Below are positions 356 to 17,549 of a stretch of DNA of 57,606 nt, piece by piece; position 1 is the stretch's first letter; the number at the start of each line of letters is the position of its first letter. The notes beneath the pieces were generated by a model. The model was not told the origin of the DNA, made no database searches, and worked only from the letters and a program-made list of their open reading frames with translations. This DNA comes from Alphaproteobacteria bacterium. GTDB lineage: Bacteria > Pseudomonadota > Alphaproteobacteria > Micropepsales > Micropepsaceae. The stretch covers positions 1 to 57,606 of the forward strand of contig CANJJD010000015.1 of assembly GCA_947474645.1 (NCBI GenBank). The letters are read 5' to 3'. The position numbers and the translations under genes are program-made.

Positions 356-874
356 TTGGGCCGGGACGTTCTCCTGGCCGCCGTCATGGGCGCGCAGGGC
401 CTGAAGGGCGAGGTGAAGGTGAAAACCTTTACCGCCGCGCCCGATGCCCTGCCGCGCTATGGCAAGCTGCATGCCAGGGATGGACGCACGTTCACGATCA
501 CCGCTTTTCGCCCCTCCAAACAGGGCGAGGCGGTGATTTCGTTTGCCGAGGTGCGTGACCGCAATGCCGCCGAGGCGCTGAAGGGCACCGAGCTGTTCGT
601 CTCCCGCGATGCCTTGCCGCCGCCGGATGAAGACGAGTTCTATCACGCCGATCTGATCGGGCTGGAAGCGCGCGACAGCGAAGGCCGTGTGATCGGCAAG
701 GTCGCCGGCGTTCACAATTTCGGCGCCAGCGACGTGATCGAACTCACACGCGACGATGGCGACAGCGTGCACCTGGCCTTCACCCGCGAGACCGTGCCGG
801 TGATCAAGATCGCCGAGGGTTACATCCTGGTCGCCGTACCCGAAGACGATGACGGCACCGATCATGTCGAGTAG
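356..874 (+). CDS. rimM: Ribosome maturation factor RimM
   Basis: RimM helps mature the 30S 3' domain and binds S19. The 172-residue product has the expected two parts: an N-terminal RimM barrel (VLLAAVMGAQGLKGEVKVK near residue 5) and a C-terminal PRC-barrel (DLIGLEARDSEGRVIGKV around residue 98). The only start that keeps the conserved N-terminus is TTG at 356, directly abutting the rpsP stop, so initiation probably depends on ribosomes ending rpsP. Its 3' end overlaps the start of trmD. Length is normal for the family. Confidence 0.95.
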   Translation: MGRDVLLAAVMGAQGLKGEVKVKTFTAAPDALPRYGKLHARDGRTFTITAFRPSKQGEAVISFAEVRDRNAAEALKGTELFVSRDALPPPDEDEFYHADLIGLEARDSEGRVIGKVAGVHNFGASDVIELTRDDGDSVHLAFTRETVPVIKIAEGYILVAVPEDDDGTDHVE

Positions 875-1646
875 TGAGGAGCGGTTCGCCGAAGGCGAAC
901 GGAATGGTCCAGTGGACCATTCCGAGCGAGGAACGCCGCGAGCACAAGCGAGCGGCTGGAGAGCCACCATCCTCACGCTGTTTCCCGAAATGTTTCCCGG
1001 GCCGCTGGGGATCTCGCTGCTGGGCAAGGCATTGCAGCAGGATCTCTGGCAGTTGGACGTGCGCGACATCCGCGACCATGGCCTGGGCAAGCACCGCACG
1101 GTGGACGACAGCCCGTCCGGCGGCGGGCCGGGCATGGTGATGCGCGCCGATGTGGCTGCCGCCGCCATTGACGCGGTGGACCGTAATGACCGCCCGCTGA
1201 TCTATCTGTCGCCGCGCGGGGCGCCGCTGACCCAAGCGCGCGTGCGCGACCTGGCAGCGGGCCCCGGCGCGATCCTGTTGTGCGGCCGCTTTGAGGGCCT
1301 GGACCAGCGGGTGATCGAGGCCCGCGCCATCGAGGAAATTTCCCTGGGCGACTTTGTCCTGGCGGGCGGCGAAATCGCCGCCATGGCCCTGATCGAGGCC
1401 TCCGTCCGGCTGATCCCGGGGGTGCTGGGGGACCACGCCTCCACCCAGGACGAAAGCTTTGCCGCGGGCCTTCTGGAATACCCGCATTATACCCGCCCGC
1501 AACTGTTCGAGGACCGGCCCATTCCGCAGGTGTTAAACGGCGGAAATCACTCGGAAATCGCCAAATTTCGCAACTCTCAGGCCGAAGACCTGACCCGGGC
1601 GCGCCGCCCCGACCTCTGGACCCTCTATGAAAAGACCAAACGCTAG
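849..1646 (+). CDS. trmD: tRNA (guanine-N1)-methyltransferase TrmD with N-terminal inserted segment
   Basis: TrmD makes m1G37 in tRNAs with G36, preventing +1 frameshifting. The SPOUT knot sequence is present (LSPRGAPLTQ and LLCGRFEGLDQR) and the C-terminal YTRPQLF and GGNHSEI motifs are intact. Family members normally begin almost directly with the ATILTLFPEMF strand. Here about 36 extra residues precede it, most of them encoded by a palindromic element (875-960). The start could be ATG 849, overlapping rimM by 26 bases, or ATG 864; the latter would be a plausible ancestral start just before the insertion. Neither has a strong Shine-Dalgarno sequence. Enzyme identity is certain; the start is not. 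Confidence 0.93.
   Translation: MTAPIMSSSEERFAEGERNGPVDHSERGTPRAQASGWRATILTLFPEMFPGPLGISLLGKALQQDLWQLDVRDIRDHGLGKHRTVDDSPSGGGPGMVMRADVAAAAIDAVDRNDRPLIYLSPRGAPLTQARVRDLAAGPGAILLCGRFEGLDQRVIEARAIEEISLGDFVLAGGEIAAMALIEASVRLIPGVLGDHASTQDESFAAGLLEYPHYTRPQLFEDRPIPQVLNGGNHSEIAKFRNSQAEDLTRARRPDLWTLYEKTKR
875..960 (+). repeat. Palindromic element inside the 5' end of trmD
   Basis: Between the rimM stop and the conserved trmD core lies a segment of nested inverted repeats. Bases 885-899 form a small hairpin (TTCGCC, GAA loop, GGCGAA). Bases 900-924 form a perfect palindrome with 12-bp arms around a single G. Bases 936-955 contain a GCCGC/GCGGC pair. It is read in frame with trmD, adding a hydrophilic stretch (about residues 10-36). 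The organization resembles in-frame palindromic elements known from alphaproteobacteria such as Rickettsia RPEs. Membership in any named family was not tested. Confidence 0.75.
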
Positions 1647-2713: not shown

Positions 2714-4015
2714 ATGCGGACGCTCACATTGCTGTTGTGGCTGATGCCGGTGCCCGTCCTGGCGCAGGGCATGGCGATGGATCACGACATGTCCAGCATG
2801 TCTCATGACATGCCGGGCATGAAACAAGGCATGCATCATGGCATGCACGGATTGCTCGGCGGCTACGGCATGAGCCGTGAAGCCTCCGGCACAAGCTGGC
2901 AGCCGCAGGCCGCGCCCCATTCCGCCATCCATCTGATGGCCGATGACTGGACGGTGATGCTGCATGGCAAGGTCAGCGGCATCGCCGACCGGCAATCGGG
3001 GCCGCGCGGCGGCGACCAGATATTTTCCACCAGCATGGCGATGGCCATGGCGACCAAAGACCTCAGCAATGGCGACACGCTGGGATTGAAGGCGATGCTC
3101 AGCGGCGATGCCTTCATGGGGCGGCGCGGTTATCCCTTGCTGCTGGCGTCTGGCGAAACCGCCGACGGCGCCACGCACCTGGTGGACCGCCAGCATCCCC
3201 ACGACCTGTTGGGAGAGCTGGCCGCCAGCTACAGCCATCCCTTGTCGGACAGTGCCAGCGTCTTTCTCTATGGCGGCTATCCGGGCGAAGCGGCGCTGGG
3301 ACCAACCGCCTATATGCACCGCGTTTCGGCCGCCGATAATCCCATGACGCCGATCGCCCATCACTGGCTGGATTCCAGCCATGTCAGCTTCGGCGTGATC
3401 ACCGCGGGCCTCATCCATCAGGATTGGAAAGTGGAAGTGTCGCGCTTCACCGGGCGCGAGCCCGACCAGTTCCGGTTCAATTTCGACAAGGCGCGCTTTG
3501 ATTCCACCGCGGTGCGGCTGTCGTGGAATCCGGGTCCCCACTGGTCGTTGCAGCTTTCCAGCGGCTGGCTGAAAAGCCCCGAACAGCTCGATCCCGATTT
3601 GAACGAGCAGCGCCTGACCGCCAGCGCCACCTGGTTCAATCAATTCGACTGGGGCAGCGTCGCCGCCACCCTGGCGTTTGGCAGAAAGCAGCTTTCCAAC
3701 GCCATCAGCGAGAATGCCGCCCTGGTGGAAATGGAATACAAGCCCGTGCCGGCCTGGACCTTGTTTGCCCGCGCCGAGAGTATCGAAAGCACCGAACTGG
3801 TGCCGGCGGCTGGCCCCGCCCCGCAAATCCGCGGGGCCGGGGAATTCAGCCTGGGCGCGGTGCACGACTGGGCAATTGCCGAGCATTGGAAGATCGGCCT
3901 GGGCGGGCTCTATGCCTTTGATTTTGCCCCCTCTATTTCGGTGGCCTCACCAACGGCCTCCTATGGCCGAAATCCCCATGGCGCGATGGGCTTTGTCCGG
4001 CTGGTTGCCGAATAG
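2714..4015 (+). CDS. Exported Met/His-rich protein, probable outer-membrane barrel
   Basis: A 433-residue protein with a signal peptide (MRTLTLLLWLMPVPVLAQG, predicted cut after AQ). The mature N-terminus is extraordinarily rich in Met, His and Asp (MDHDMSSMSHDMPGMKQGMH, then HGMHG; residues about 22-46), the type of run seen in periplasmic copper-handling proteins. The rest alternates short aromatic/polar strands (WSLQLSSGWL, WTLFARAESIE, WKIGLGGLYAFDF) and ends in an amphipathic strand, as expected for a beta-barrel. Specific function is unknown; copper binding is inferred from composition alone. The nearest genes, HU and mdh, are unrelated. It stands alone after the HU terminator. Confidence 0.8.
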   Translation: MRTLTLLLWLMPVPVLAQGMAMDHDMSSMSHDMPGMKQGMHHGMHGLLGGYGMSREASGTSWQPQAAPHSAIHLMADDWTVMLHGKVSGIADRQSGPRGGDQIFSTSMAMAMATKDLSNGDTLGLKAMLSGDAFMGRRGYPLLLASGETADGATHLVDRQHPHDLLGELAASYSHPLSDSASVFLYGGYPGEAALGPTAYMHRVSAADNPMTPIAHHWLDSSHVSFGVITAGLIHQDWKVEVSRFTGREPDQFRFNFDKARFDSTAVRLSWNPGPHWSLQLSSGWLKSPEQLDPDLNEQRLTASATWFNQFDWGSVAATLAFGRKQLSNAISENAALVEMEYKPVPAWTLFARAESIESTELVPAAGPAPQIRGAGEFSLGAVHDWAIAEHWKIGLGGLYAFDFAPSISVASPTASYGRNPHGAMGFVRLVAE

Positions 4016-4063
4016 CCCAAAAGCCATTCTGTCGCCTTGCCGGTAGGGCCTGTAGCGGGCTAG

Positions 4064-5056
<993 letters not shown>

Positions 5057-5157
5057 TCCAGGCCGTCTGACACCCCAAGTCCCTATCGAAAGCCTTCCGG
5101 CTTGTGGCGGTTCCGCCACTTGTCAGGGGGTGGGATTTTTGCGACAAATCGATACAA

Positions 5158-5688
5158 ATGGAACTCGCAACGCTTAACCAACGGGAATTACAGCGTTTTT
5201 CGCTCTGGACGGTCATTGCGCTGGCGATGGCCGGCTGGATGTTGCTGGCCGCCGGCCTGGTCGCGCCCGCCCGGGCCCAGGAGCCCGTGACGGCGAACGG
5301 CGCCACTTTGGTGATCCGCATCCAGGATGTGTCGCCCAAGGGCGGCACCCTGCGGCTGGGCCTGTATGACGAGGCCCGCTACCCCGACGACGCCGCCGCC
5401 CCGGTGGCCAGCGCCGATGTCCGCGCCGAGACGGGCGAGACGGTGATTACCCTGAACAATGTCCCGCCGGGCACCTATGCCATCCAGACCTTCCAGGACA
5501 TCAACAGCAACGACAAGATGGACACGACCTGGCTGGGCTTGCCCCAGGAGCCGTTCGGCTTTTCGCGCGACGCCAAGCCGGTCTTTTCCAAGCCGGGCTT
5601 CGCCAAGGTGAAGTTCGAAGTGACGCCGGGCATGAATGTCCAGGTTCTGCATCTGCAGAATTCCGTCTCTCTGCTGGCTTCCAAGTAA
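5158..5688 (+). CDS. Exported DUF2141-domain protein
   Basis: A 176-residue protein. After a 12-residue polar start there is a hydrophobic segment (VIALAMAGWMLLAAGLVAPARAQ) resembling a signal peptide with an AQ cleavage site. The rest matches the DUF2141 pattern: GGTLRLGLYDEARYP, then VPPGTYAIQTFQDINSNDKM, DTTWLGLPQEPFGFS and KVKFEV. DUF2141 proteins are small secreted beta-rich domains with no assigned biochemistry. ATG 5158 was preferred to GTG 5104, which would add 18 residues ahead of the signal. No clear ribosome site is seen, so the start is moderately certain. Confidence 0.8.
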   Translation: MELATLNQRELQRFSLWTVIALAMAGWMLLAAGLVAPARAQEPVTANGATLVIRIQDVSPKGGTLRLGLYDEARYPDDAAAPVASADVRAETGETVITLNNVPPGTYAIQTFQDINSNDKMDTTWLGLPQEPFGFSRDAKPVFSKPGFAKVKFEVTPGMNVQVLHLQNSVSLLASK

Positions 5689-5728
5689 CTGTTGCGCTGT
5701 CGCGCCGCGTGTTAAGCCACAGCGGCTC

Positions 5729-6955
5729 ATGAGCGACTCCACCATCTACCGCGACCGCGATCTTCATTCCTTTGTCGGCGCGCGCTTCATCTCCACCCTG
5801 GCCATCCAGGTCCAGTCCGTCGCCATCGGCTGGCAGGTCTATGACATGGAGCGCACGCCGCTGGCGCTGGGGCTGGTGGGGCTGTGCCAGTTCGCGCCCA
5901 TGTTCCTGCTGACTTTGCCCGCTGGCGACATCACCGACCGCTTCAACCAGCGCCGTGTCTATAGCCTGGCGGCGGGCCTGCAGGCGGTGTGCAGCCTGCT
6001 GTTCCTGGCGCTGAGCATCTACCGGCCGCACAGCGCCTGGATGTTCTATTGCGTGCTGGTGCTGTTCGGCGCGGCGCGCGGCTTTACCGGCCCCTCCGGT
6101 TCCTCGCTGCTGCCCTTCCTGGTGCCGCCCGAGCGGCTCGCCAAGTCGATGGCCTTCAGCTCCTCCTTTTTCACCGCCGCCACCATTTCCGGGCCGGCGC
6201 TGGGCGGCTTTCTCTATGCGTTGGGACCGGTGCCGGTCTATTCGCTGTGCATCGCCGGATTCATCGGCGCGGCGCTGATCGTCACCCGGTTGGGCGGGCG
6301 GCGGTTTGTGCCTGCGCCGACGCAGGCCAGCCGCCTGGAGCGGGTGGCCGAAGGGGTGCGCTTTGTGCGCTCGCGCCCCGTCGTGCTGGGCGCCATTTCG
6401 CTGGACCTTTTTGCCGTGCTCTTGGGCGGGGCCACCGCGCTGCTGCCGGTCTATGCCCGCGACATCCTGCATGTCGGGCCGCTGGGCCTTGGTTTTTTGC
6501 GCAGCGCGCCCGCGGCGGGCGCTTTTTCCATGGCCTTCTTTCTCACCCATTGGCCGCTGCGGGGCAAAGTCGGCGCCAAGATGTTCGCGGCGGTGGCGGT
6601 GTTCGGCGTCGCCACCATCGTGTTCGGTCTGTCCACCTGGTTTCCCGTCTCGCTGCTGGCGCTCTATGTGCTGGGCGCGTCCGACATGGTCAGCGTCAAT
6701 ATCCGCTCCTCGCTGATCCAGCTTTCCACCCCCGACACGATGCGCGGCCGCGTCTCATCGGTCTCGATGCTGTTCATCGGCGCCTCCAACGAGCTGGGCG
6801 AGTTTGAATCGGGCATCACCGCGGCCCTGATGGGCACCGTGCCGGCGGTGGTGGCCGGCGGCATCGGCACATTGCTGGTGGTGGGATTTTGGATGAAGCT
6901 GTTCCCGCCATTGCGGCAGGTCAACAAGTTCACCGACGTTGCGGTGCCGGTTTAG
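5729..6955 (+). CDS. Major facilitator superfamily transporter (EntS/MFS_3-like)
   Basis: A 408-residue, 12-helix inner-membrane transporter. Helix 1 begins near FVGARFISTLAIQVQSVAIGWQVYD, a sequence typical of the MFS_3 (EntS-like) exporter subgroup. The loop 2-3 motif LPAGDITDRFNQRRV and a matching central half are present. ATG 5729 lies 40 bases after the DUF2141 stop, and both may be co-transcribed. The substrate cannot be inferred. The 3' end overlaps the stop of the convergent OmpA-like gene by 4 bases. An in-frame upstream extension from 5636 would run through the neighbouring gene and is rejected. Confidence 0.88.
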   Translation: MSDSTIYRDRDLHSFVGARFISTLAIQVQSVAIGWQVYDMERTPLALGLVGLCQFAPMFLLTLPAGDITDRFNQRRVYSLAAGLQAVCSLLFLALSIYRPHSAWMFYCVLVLFGAARGFTGPSGSSLLPFLVPPERLAKSMAFSSSFFTAATISGPALGGFLYALGPVPVYSLCIAGFIGAALIVTRLGGRRFVPAPTQASRLERVAEGVRFVRSRPVVLGAISLDLFAVLLGGATALLPVYARDILHVGPLGLGFLRSAPAAGAFSMAFFLTHWPLRGKVGAKMFAAVAVFGVATIVFGLSTWFPVSLLALYVLGASDMVSVNIRSSLIQLSTPDTMRGRVSSVSMLFIGASNELGEFESGITAALMGTVPAVVAGGIGTLLVVGFWMKLFPPLRQVNKFTDVAVPV

Positions 6956-17380: not shown

Positions 17381-17549
17381 GAGGCGGACGGTCACTGTCT
17401 CGCGCGTCAGGTTGCGATGCCCAGGGGCCTTAATTGTACTCATCGGGAGTTGTCCCTGACCGGGACCGTGGTTCCGGATACACGACGCCCACCTGCACTT
17501 GCAGGCCCATGAGATCCAATACCAACGGCGAATGCGGTACCGTCCACTT
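17381..17549 (+). ncRNA. ssrS: 6S RNA (SsrS)
   Basis: The 179-base gap between zapA and the cyclo-ligase gene is exactly where 6S RNA lies in proteobacteria. GGACGGT (17386-17392) and ACCGTCC (17539-17545) can close a terminal stem. The internal sequence GGTTCCGGATACACGACGCC then CACCTGC resembles the 3' side of alphaproteobacterial 6S RNAs as I remember them. 6S RNA mimics an open promoter and sequesters sigma70 RNA polymerase in stationary phase. Exact ends are estimates; a covariance search would settle it. Confidence 0.75.

Follow-up and report, generated by a model that had tools for sequence, protein, structure and literature searches.

The stretch of DNA considered here, hereafter the window, covers 57,606 nucleotides (nt) of contig CANJJD010000015.1 from an Alphaproteobacteria bacterium of the Micropepsaceae family (assembly GCA_947474645.1) and contains the genes rimM and trmD, at the junction of which lies a palindromic element of about 86 nt (Table 1). 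The named relatives of its trmD place the genome near Rhizomicrobium. A sequence-only reading of this DNA had noticed a palindrome with a smaller hairpin beside it, inserted in frame at the rimM-trmD junction and adding about 27 residues to TrmD. All of this is borne out: the palindrome has 12-nt arms (900-911 and 913-924) that are 100% complementary around a 1-nt spacer, the smaller hairpin is present, the open reading frame (ORF) of trmD passes through the palindromic stretch at the junction, and 81 bp make 27 codons.

An empty site, which the same reading had suggested looking for in trmD of close relatives, exists in L046, L047, L048 and L051, which show an 81-bp gap when aligned with the window. 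These relatives read GTCGAGTA and then GCTGG, and the window carries 81 extra bases between the two, the whole junction being ATGTCGAGTAGCTGG in the relatives and ATGTCGAGTAG, the 81 bases and CTGG in the window. The proposed bounds of 875-960 were near and have to be moved to 875-955, or to 874-954 given an ambiguity of 1 nt. The element falls in the trmD frame because the trmD start, probably ATG 864 to judge from the relatives, is 11 nt upstream of the insertion point, and as 81 bases are 27 codons this frame runs on through the element. A profile search of 61 trmD loci found the element at the junction only in that of the window (L085 carries a copy elsewhere); 59 junctions were compared, our own and 58 others with several genomes represented twice, and L107 begins inside trmD with no junction visible.

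Table 1. Features at the rimM-trmD junction of the window
Feature	Coordinates	Strand	Remarks
rimM	356..874	+	ORF; stop TAG 872-874 retained after the insertion; same stop position in L046-L048 and L051
trmD	864..1646	+	ORF; putative start ATG 864 within the rimM end (ATGTCGAGTAG), as in close relatives (MSSSW/MSNSW)
Element, model R1	874..959	+	99.7 bits; 874 common to the rimM stop; 956-959 (CTGG) native
Inserted 81 bp (27 codons)	875..955	+	By comparison with close relatives, where the site is empty
P1, 5' strand	874..882	+	GU-GA-G-GA-GC; pairs with 926-934
P1, 3' strand	926..934	+	Family pattern GC-GA-C-GA-AC
P2 hairpin	884..900	+	884-890 with 894-900; the smaller hairpin of the sequence-only reading
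P3 hairpin	901..923	+	901-910 with 914-923 (the palindrome); apex GGTCC-RGT-GGACC in most copies
P4	935..956	+	GCCGC-GA-GC, NNNN loop, GC-GA-GCGGC; last base native
TrmD extension			Peptide sequence that would mark the extension: SSSEERFAEGER

We read the element, with a probability of roughly 0.84, as a structured mobile repeat of about 86 nt resembling the repetitive extragenic palindromes (REPs), which enters genes at their stop codons or just beside them, in sense orientation, usually supplying its own UGA from a 5'-GTGAG start. In this lineage it would have inserted directly behind the rimM stop codon and, being in the trmD frame, would on translation give TrmD an N-terminal extension of 27 residues that is probably disordered. 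Dispersed copies, empty sites, a conserved fold, the position relative to stop codons and a bias towards Gly and Glu before the stop are all observed directly.

Other copies in the own genome (54 contigs, 99.6% complete), which the sequence-only reading had proposed to search for, are numerous: a blastn search with positions 860-980 gave 21 matches at E<=1e-3, a count that includes the query itself and its self-complementary palindrome, and a covariance model gave 31 matches at E<=1e-6. The same blastn query found matches in 16 of 61 genomes of relatives (own included), all of the same genus, and the model, named R1 and scored on at most 65 candidates per genus genome and at most 11 per class-wide genome, found copies (E<=1e-6) in 34 of the 69 genomes of the genus, with 31 in our own and up to 63 in one genome. 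In a class-wide sample, at least 8 of 385 genomes carry matches at E<=1e-5, three of them of the genus and five of other families. Among plasmid records, the window copy matches three of Rhizobium and a Rhizobium copy matches 31 (Rhizobium 29, Neorhizobium 1, Paracoccus 1); of the other subfamilies, the L038 copy has no plasmid match and the L042 copy one short match in Marinibacterium. A phage search returned no match to the element and a 32-base pattern of it had no exact match in viral_contigs, and carriage by phages or viruses was rejected on these grounds. The open-access literature that we searched yielded no description of the element.

The placement of the family was surveyed in 153 copies, 134 of them in 100 regions taken from the best-scoring matches in relatives and 19 of the 23 in the own genome (the four weakest were left out); two copies at contig edges were set aside, leaving 151. 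Genes were called with a simple codon score trained on 30 ORFs of the window, annotation being used for plasmid records only. A plausible gene on the same strand ends within -150 to +60 of element position 1 in 124 of the 151 copies, and for 82 the upstream stop codon ends at -3 to +6 of an element in sense orientation. Sixty-one stops lie at exactly +4, that is on element positions 2-4 (59 TGA, 2 TAA), and eight lie at +1, all being TAG made of TA and the G of the element. As controls, random positions in the same loci have a stop within -3 to +6 in 155 cases of 15300 (about 1%), and GTGAG words, copies included, in 256 of 2247. At these 61 sites the stop is preceded by Gly in 41, Glu in 12, Arg in 3, Lys in 2, Asp in 2 and Gln in 1, against a background of 8.5% Gly and 4.2% Glu as last residues of 1473 ORFs with high codon scores.

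In most orthologues that lack the element the C-terminus is the same, and TAG, TAA or TGA comes next. TGA is found in 0 of 6, 0 of 7 and 0 of 7 empty orthologues of the genes of L038, L040 and L041, respectively, and the filled ones use TGA. In annotated Rhizobiaceae plasmid regions, a coding sequence ends at element position 4 in 14 of 18, in three different genes: 12 genes for a sugar ABC substrate-binding protein, which represent one orthologous place with some nearly identical records, queF, and a gene for a tripartite tricarboxylate transporter binding protein; in the remaining four regions (one place) the element sits in the spacer between divergent genes. A Rhizobium leguminosarum plasmid without the element (L352) offers the corresponding empty site, GGC-TAG as opposed to GGG-TGA-GGAGCGG. 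In several orthologous genes, though not in all, different subfamilies occupy the same nucleotide in different genomes, which we read as probable repeated insertion, the alternative being a long divergence with compensating changes; behind one gene, the element stands in reverse orientation in two genomes (L255, L282). Empty and filled sites, together with different subfamilies at one nucleotide of orthologous genes, thus suggest that the element moves.

Copies align over about 86 positions and share a fold of four helices in which P1 encloses the hairpins P2 and P3 and is followed by P4, the palindrome being P3. P1 consists of short pairs with tandem GA between them; in the window copy G930, a C in most copies, disrupts its middle G-C pair, and some subfamilies have Watson-Crick pairs in place of the inner GA. 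The folding energy of the window copy is -42.7 kcal/mol (z -4.66), with 0 of 200 shuffles as low, and seven copies folded singly have z-scores from -3.6 to -6.2. In alignment A2 (31 copies; those of L013, L036 and L039 are in alignment A1 and were left out of A2), 21 of 31 pairs show two-sided changes, in 89 cells as compared with 18.2 +- 3.4 after shuffling. In alignment A3 (134 copies), which was fitted to the model and hence leans towards the fold, all 31 pairs show them, with 487 cells against 103.7 +- 14.3 and 0 of 500 shuffles, and the score falls from 0.351 to at most 0.057 when partners are slid by 1-3 columns. At mostly paired positions G-U outnumbers A-C by 67 to 25 (p 1.4e-5, the related copies not being independent); this excess points to the sense strand as the folding strand, as RNA or as single-stranded DNA. 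None of the families of Rfam 15 (8 sources, gathering scores) matches the element.

Several observations weigh against a mobile repeat aimed at stop codons. The surveyed copies come from the best-scoring part of the list and not from a random draw, and 69 of the 151 lie away from a stop codon by the criterion used. Empty orthologues of the L037 gene have TGA in 6 of 7, often likewise for other genes, so that the element need not have brought the stop there. The 81-bp insertion at rimM-trmD, with its 1-nt ambiguity, shows no target-site duplication, and the right-hand junction differs between sites. Eight distinct copies at the fixed Rhizobium site have 0 two-sided changes with 86% pairing, and the mean proportion of pairs formed is 0.927 at stops (n=69) and 0.910 elsewhere (n=65; p 0.33); both a structural upkeep at this one fixed site and a better folding at stop codons than elsewhere were accordingly rejected. 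Lastly, the search for a mover among Y1 (RAYT) transposases and reverse transcriptases yielded none. The own genome has no Y1_Tnp. Of the 69 genus genomes 18 have one, namely 3 of the 29 with at least five copies and 15 of the 40 others; for reverse transcriptase (RVT_1) the count is 22 of 69 (5 of 29 and 17 of 40, respectively). As the presence of neither tracks the element, both were rejected as movers.

These counts bear on whether the element might be a true GTAG-type REP with a shifted tag, moved by a RAYT (Y1) transposase, which we consider unlikely. It would share a placement rule, since GTAG REP ends often supply a TAG stop according to passages of PMC3733652, and its start, GTGAGGAGCG...GCGAC, resembles REPs printed in part of PMC2817692 as GTAGGAGCG...GCGA. 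Nevertheless, the own genome and 26 of the 29 genus genomes with at least five copies are without Y1_Tnp, the fold comprises 86 nt and four helices as opposed to a hairpin of 20-40 nt, and 12 loci around 10 RAYT genes, only three of which are in element-rich genomes, contain one strong copy, about 1.1 kb away (L358, G008). The likeness to GTAG/CGTC REPs, as these are described in portions of PMC3733652, is in dispersed palindromic repeats with subfamilies that have alternative complementary stem residues, located near gene 3' ends, with the element end often forming the stop (TAG in REPs) and some copies inside ORFs; the same source places REPs between co-directional genes near the 3' end of the upstream one. 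The differences are the tandem GA motifs and GTGAG start where REPs carry a GTAG tag on a single hairpin, the prevalence of UGA over UAG, the exact position relative to the last codon with its Gly/Glu bias, and the lack of RAYT in the own genome.

Other repeat families are comparable in part. YPAL/RU-2, ERIC/RU-1 and CIR are of a similar size class, with stable RNA folds and no protein of their own, and for YPAL movement was likewise deduced from empty and filled sites; they are set apart, as far as the descriptions in parts of PMC2229807 and PMC2759123 go, by other host organisms and by ends like those of miniature inverted-repeat transposable elements (MITEs) or target duplications, unlike the cleanest site of our element, and CIR is reported in those parts as not found intragenically. 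A reading of the element itself as a MITE was rejected, as it is without terminal inverted repeats (the 5' end pairs with positions 53-61 and not with the 3' end) and without a clear target duplication; in the target-duplication test, short flanking repeats are possible at L028 and L038, and the right-hand junction was unplaceable at the own sites L027, L029, L033, L040 and L044, the flanks of which are too diverged. RIME and Br-REP1 are also structured repeats in gene spacers of Rhizobiales, Br-REP1 being found in 3' untranslated regions according to part of PMC5082802. The comparison with them is indirect: the element matches no Sinorhizobium plasmid, whereas a repeat next to it in its Rhizobium spacer does match such plasmids, and the best match of model R1 in 50 kb of S. 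meliloti pSymB has E 0.38. These indirect tests tend to speak against identity with RIME.

The sequence-only reading had related the insertion to the translated palindromic elements of Rickettsia, and this kinship was not supported. A protein-coding palindromic element of the Rickettsia palindromic element (RPE) type, kept translatable in frame inside genes, has in its favour the open frame through the in-frame insertion in trmD, and the fact that in some copies (e.g. L172, L191, L163) the upstream frame ends inside the element. To this may be added a possible second translated case among 16 further copies tested: the L019 copy (G018, 1501-1585) is inside a 786-codon sense ORF with a coding signal of 9 upstream and 36 downstream (cut-off 12). 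However, the family is located at stop codons (82 of 151), and in 143 copies the three sense frames are open in 52%, 5% and 58%, with 59% expected from first-order composition, the 5% being the frame of the element's TGA; the antisense frames are open in 90%, 70% and 80%, with 80-82% expected. Selection for open sense frames was rejected, as they are open no more than expected. None of the 153 copies lies within a sense ORF that has a coding signal both before and after the copy, in a test that requires an upstream frame of 60 nt scoring >12 for coding and cannot see trmD, and the five antisense ORFs that span copies look like shadow frames. With these frame tests failed, an RPE-type element is very improbable; the likeness to RPEs as described in part of PMC2229807 is in being palindromic, dispersed and inserted in frame in a conserved gene, and the difference is in a family mostly at stops or between genes with sense frames that are not kept open.

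The TrmD extension looks like a by-product of the insertion. AlphaFold2, run with 29 aligned sequences, gave a mean predicted local distance difference test (pLDDT) score of 74.8 and a predicted template modelling score of 0.59, with pLDDT <50 at residues 1-29, 85-89 and 192-205 and >=70 at 181 of 260, which predicts a disordered N-terminal tail on a folded core. An unextended TrmD, the translation of which would begin inside or behind the element, seems to us scarcely probable: there is an in-frame GTG at 912-914, and REPs at the amino ends of ORFs often lie outside the true gene (passages of PMC3733652), yet a start at 912 would retain part of the element, no in-frame ATG, GTG or TTG occurs between the element and the conserved ATILTLFPE strand, and ATG 864 is the start common to close relatives. 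A TrmD tree, considered for a single origin, was poorly resolved (3 changes for 21 of 29 rows; G078, with no protein row, left out) and supports no claim.

For the gene upstream, the mobile repeat would most likely act at the RNA level as a ready-made mRNA 3' end, with a stable structure starting from the stop codon that would block 3'-5' decay. The structure may also delay termination and the transition to the following gene; effects of this kind are described for E. coli REPs. As the element begins at the stop codon, a terminating ribosome would have to open P1 and part of P2 and could leave P3 and P4 in place, going by ribosome footprints. With the trmD start 11 nt upstream, early trmD codons would lie within the structure, and a lower yield of TrmD is a possible, predicted consequence.

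The same features might instead describe a fixed cis-acting RNA that stabilises the mRNA or attenuates translation and that selection keeps at gene ends, with mobility as a secondary or old trait. It would account for a sense-strand fold with covariation, and the Rhizobium place between substrate-binding protein and permease genes is where malE-malF of E. coli has a protective 3' structure; according to part of PMC5927463, the mRNA upstream is stabilised in E. coli by structures of this kind that follow genes for substrate-binding proteins. In passages of PMC12306157 and PMC5082802, which cite Liang et al. 2015, ribosomes are moreover said to stall, and decay to be triggered, where a REP lies within 15 nt of a stop codon. 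Presence at orthologous genes is patchy, however, different subfamilies occur at one site in several genes, the fixed Rhizobium site is without compensatory change, and 35 of the 69 genus genomes have no match at E<=1e-6, all of which makes this explanation rather unlikely.

Within the mobile-repeat reading, we tentatively put forward, without counting it probable, an element that homes to translation stop sites: some machinery would place a structured, RNA-coding cassette that brings a UGA of its own at the last codon of genes, on a target like GG-N-TRA, leaving the protein unchanged and giving the mRNA a new 3' end, and at overlapping genes such as rimM-trmD it would give the next protein a new N-terminus. 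Copies of one repeat family that sit almost to the nucleotide at stop codons across many species make it testable why REP-like repeats crowd gene ends, by insertion preference or by later selection. Between the genes for substrate-binding protein and permease, culturable Rhizobium offers natural pairs with and without the element, and the window provides a natural example in which an essential tRNA enzyme gains length from an element that is mostly non-coding.

A number of smaller observations concern individual copies and their surroundings. The L335 copy, in another family, begins at the base behind a tRNA-Pro gene (1424-1500, confirmed by ARAGORN), from 1501 onward and with no stop codon; a tRNA next to the L333 copy was rejected, ARAGORN finding none there. 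In L198, five model matches in both orientations cluster within about 2.6 kb (3657-6283). The 5' flank of one copy each in L160, L170, L199 and L245 resembles GTCGAAGG, and another short repeat may adjoin the element. Downstream of a full copy, secondary model matches of 47-49 nt (L339 1686-1732, L338 1652-1700, L350 1650-1696) may be shortened relatives. In the Rhizobium binding-protein/permease spacer of L338, at about 1593-1770, a second repeat follows the element; the Sinorhizobium rows listed and many Rhizobium rows match this second repeat only, the whole 400-base query matching 704 places in 309 records.

At the rimM-trmD junction of other genomes, the spacer between the rimM stop and the trmD start of L059, L064, L066, L084, L095 and L102 (some from the same genome) contains a different repeat-like hairpin, CGCCGAGCGG...CCGCGAGG, and that of L069 and L094 another stem, AAATCTGCAAAGCAGATTT. 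Elsewhere in the window, positions 17389-17544 (+) encode a 6S RNA (Rfam RF00013, 55.5 bits for a cut-off of 46.4), the sole Rfam match.
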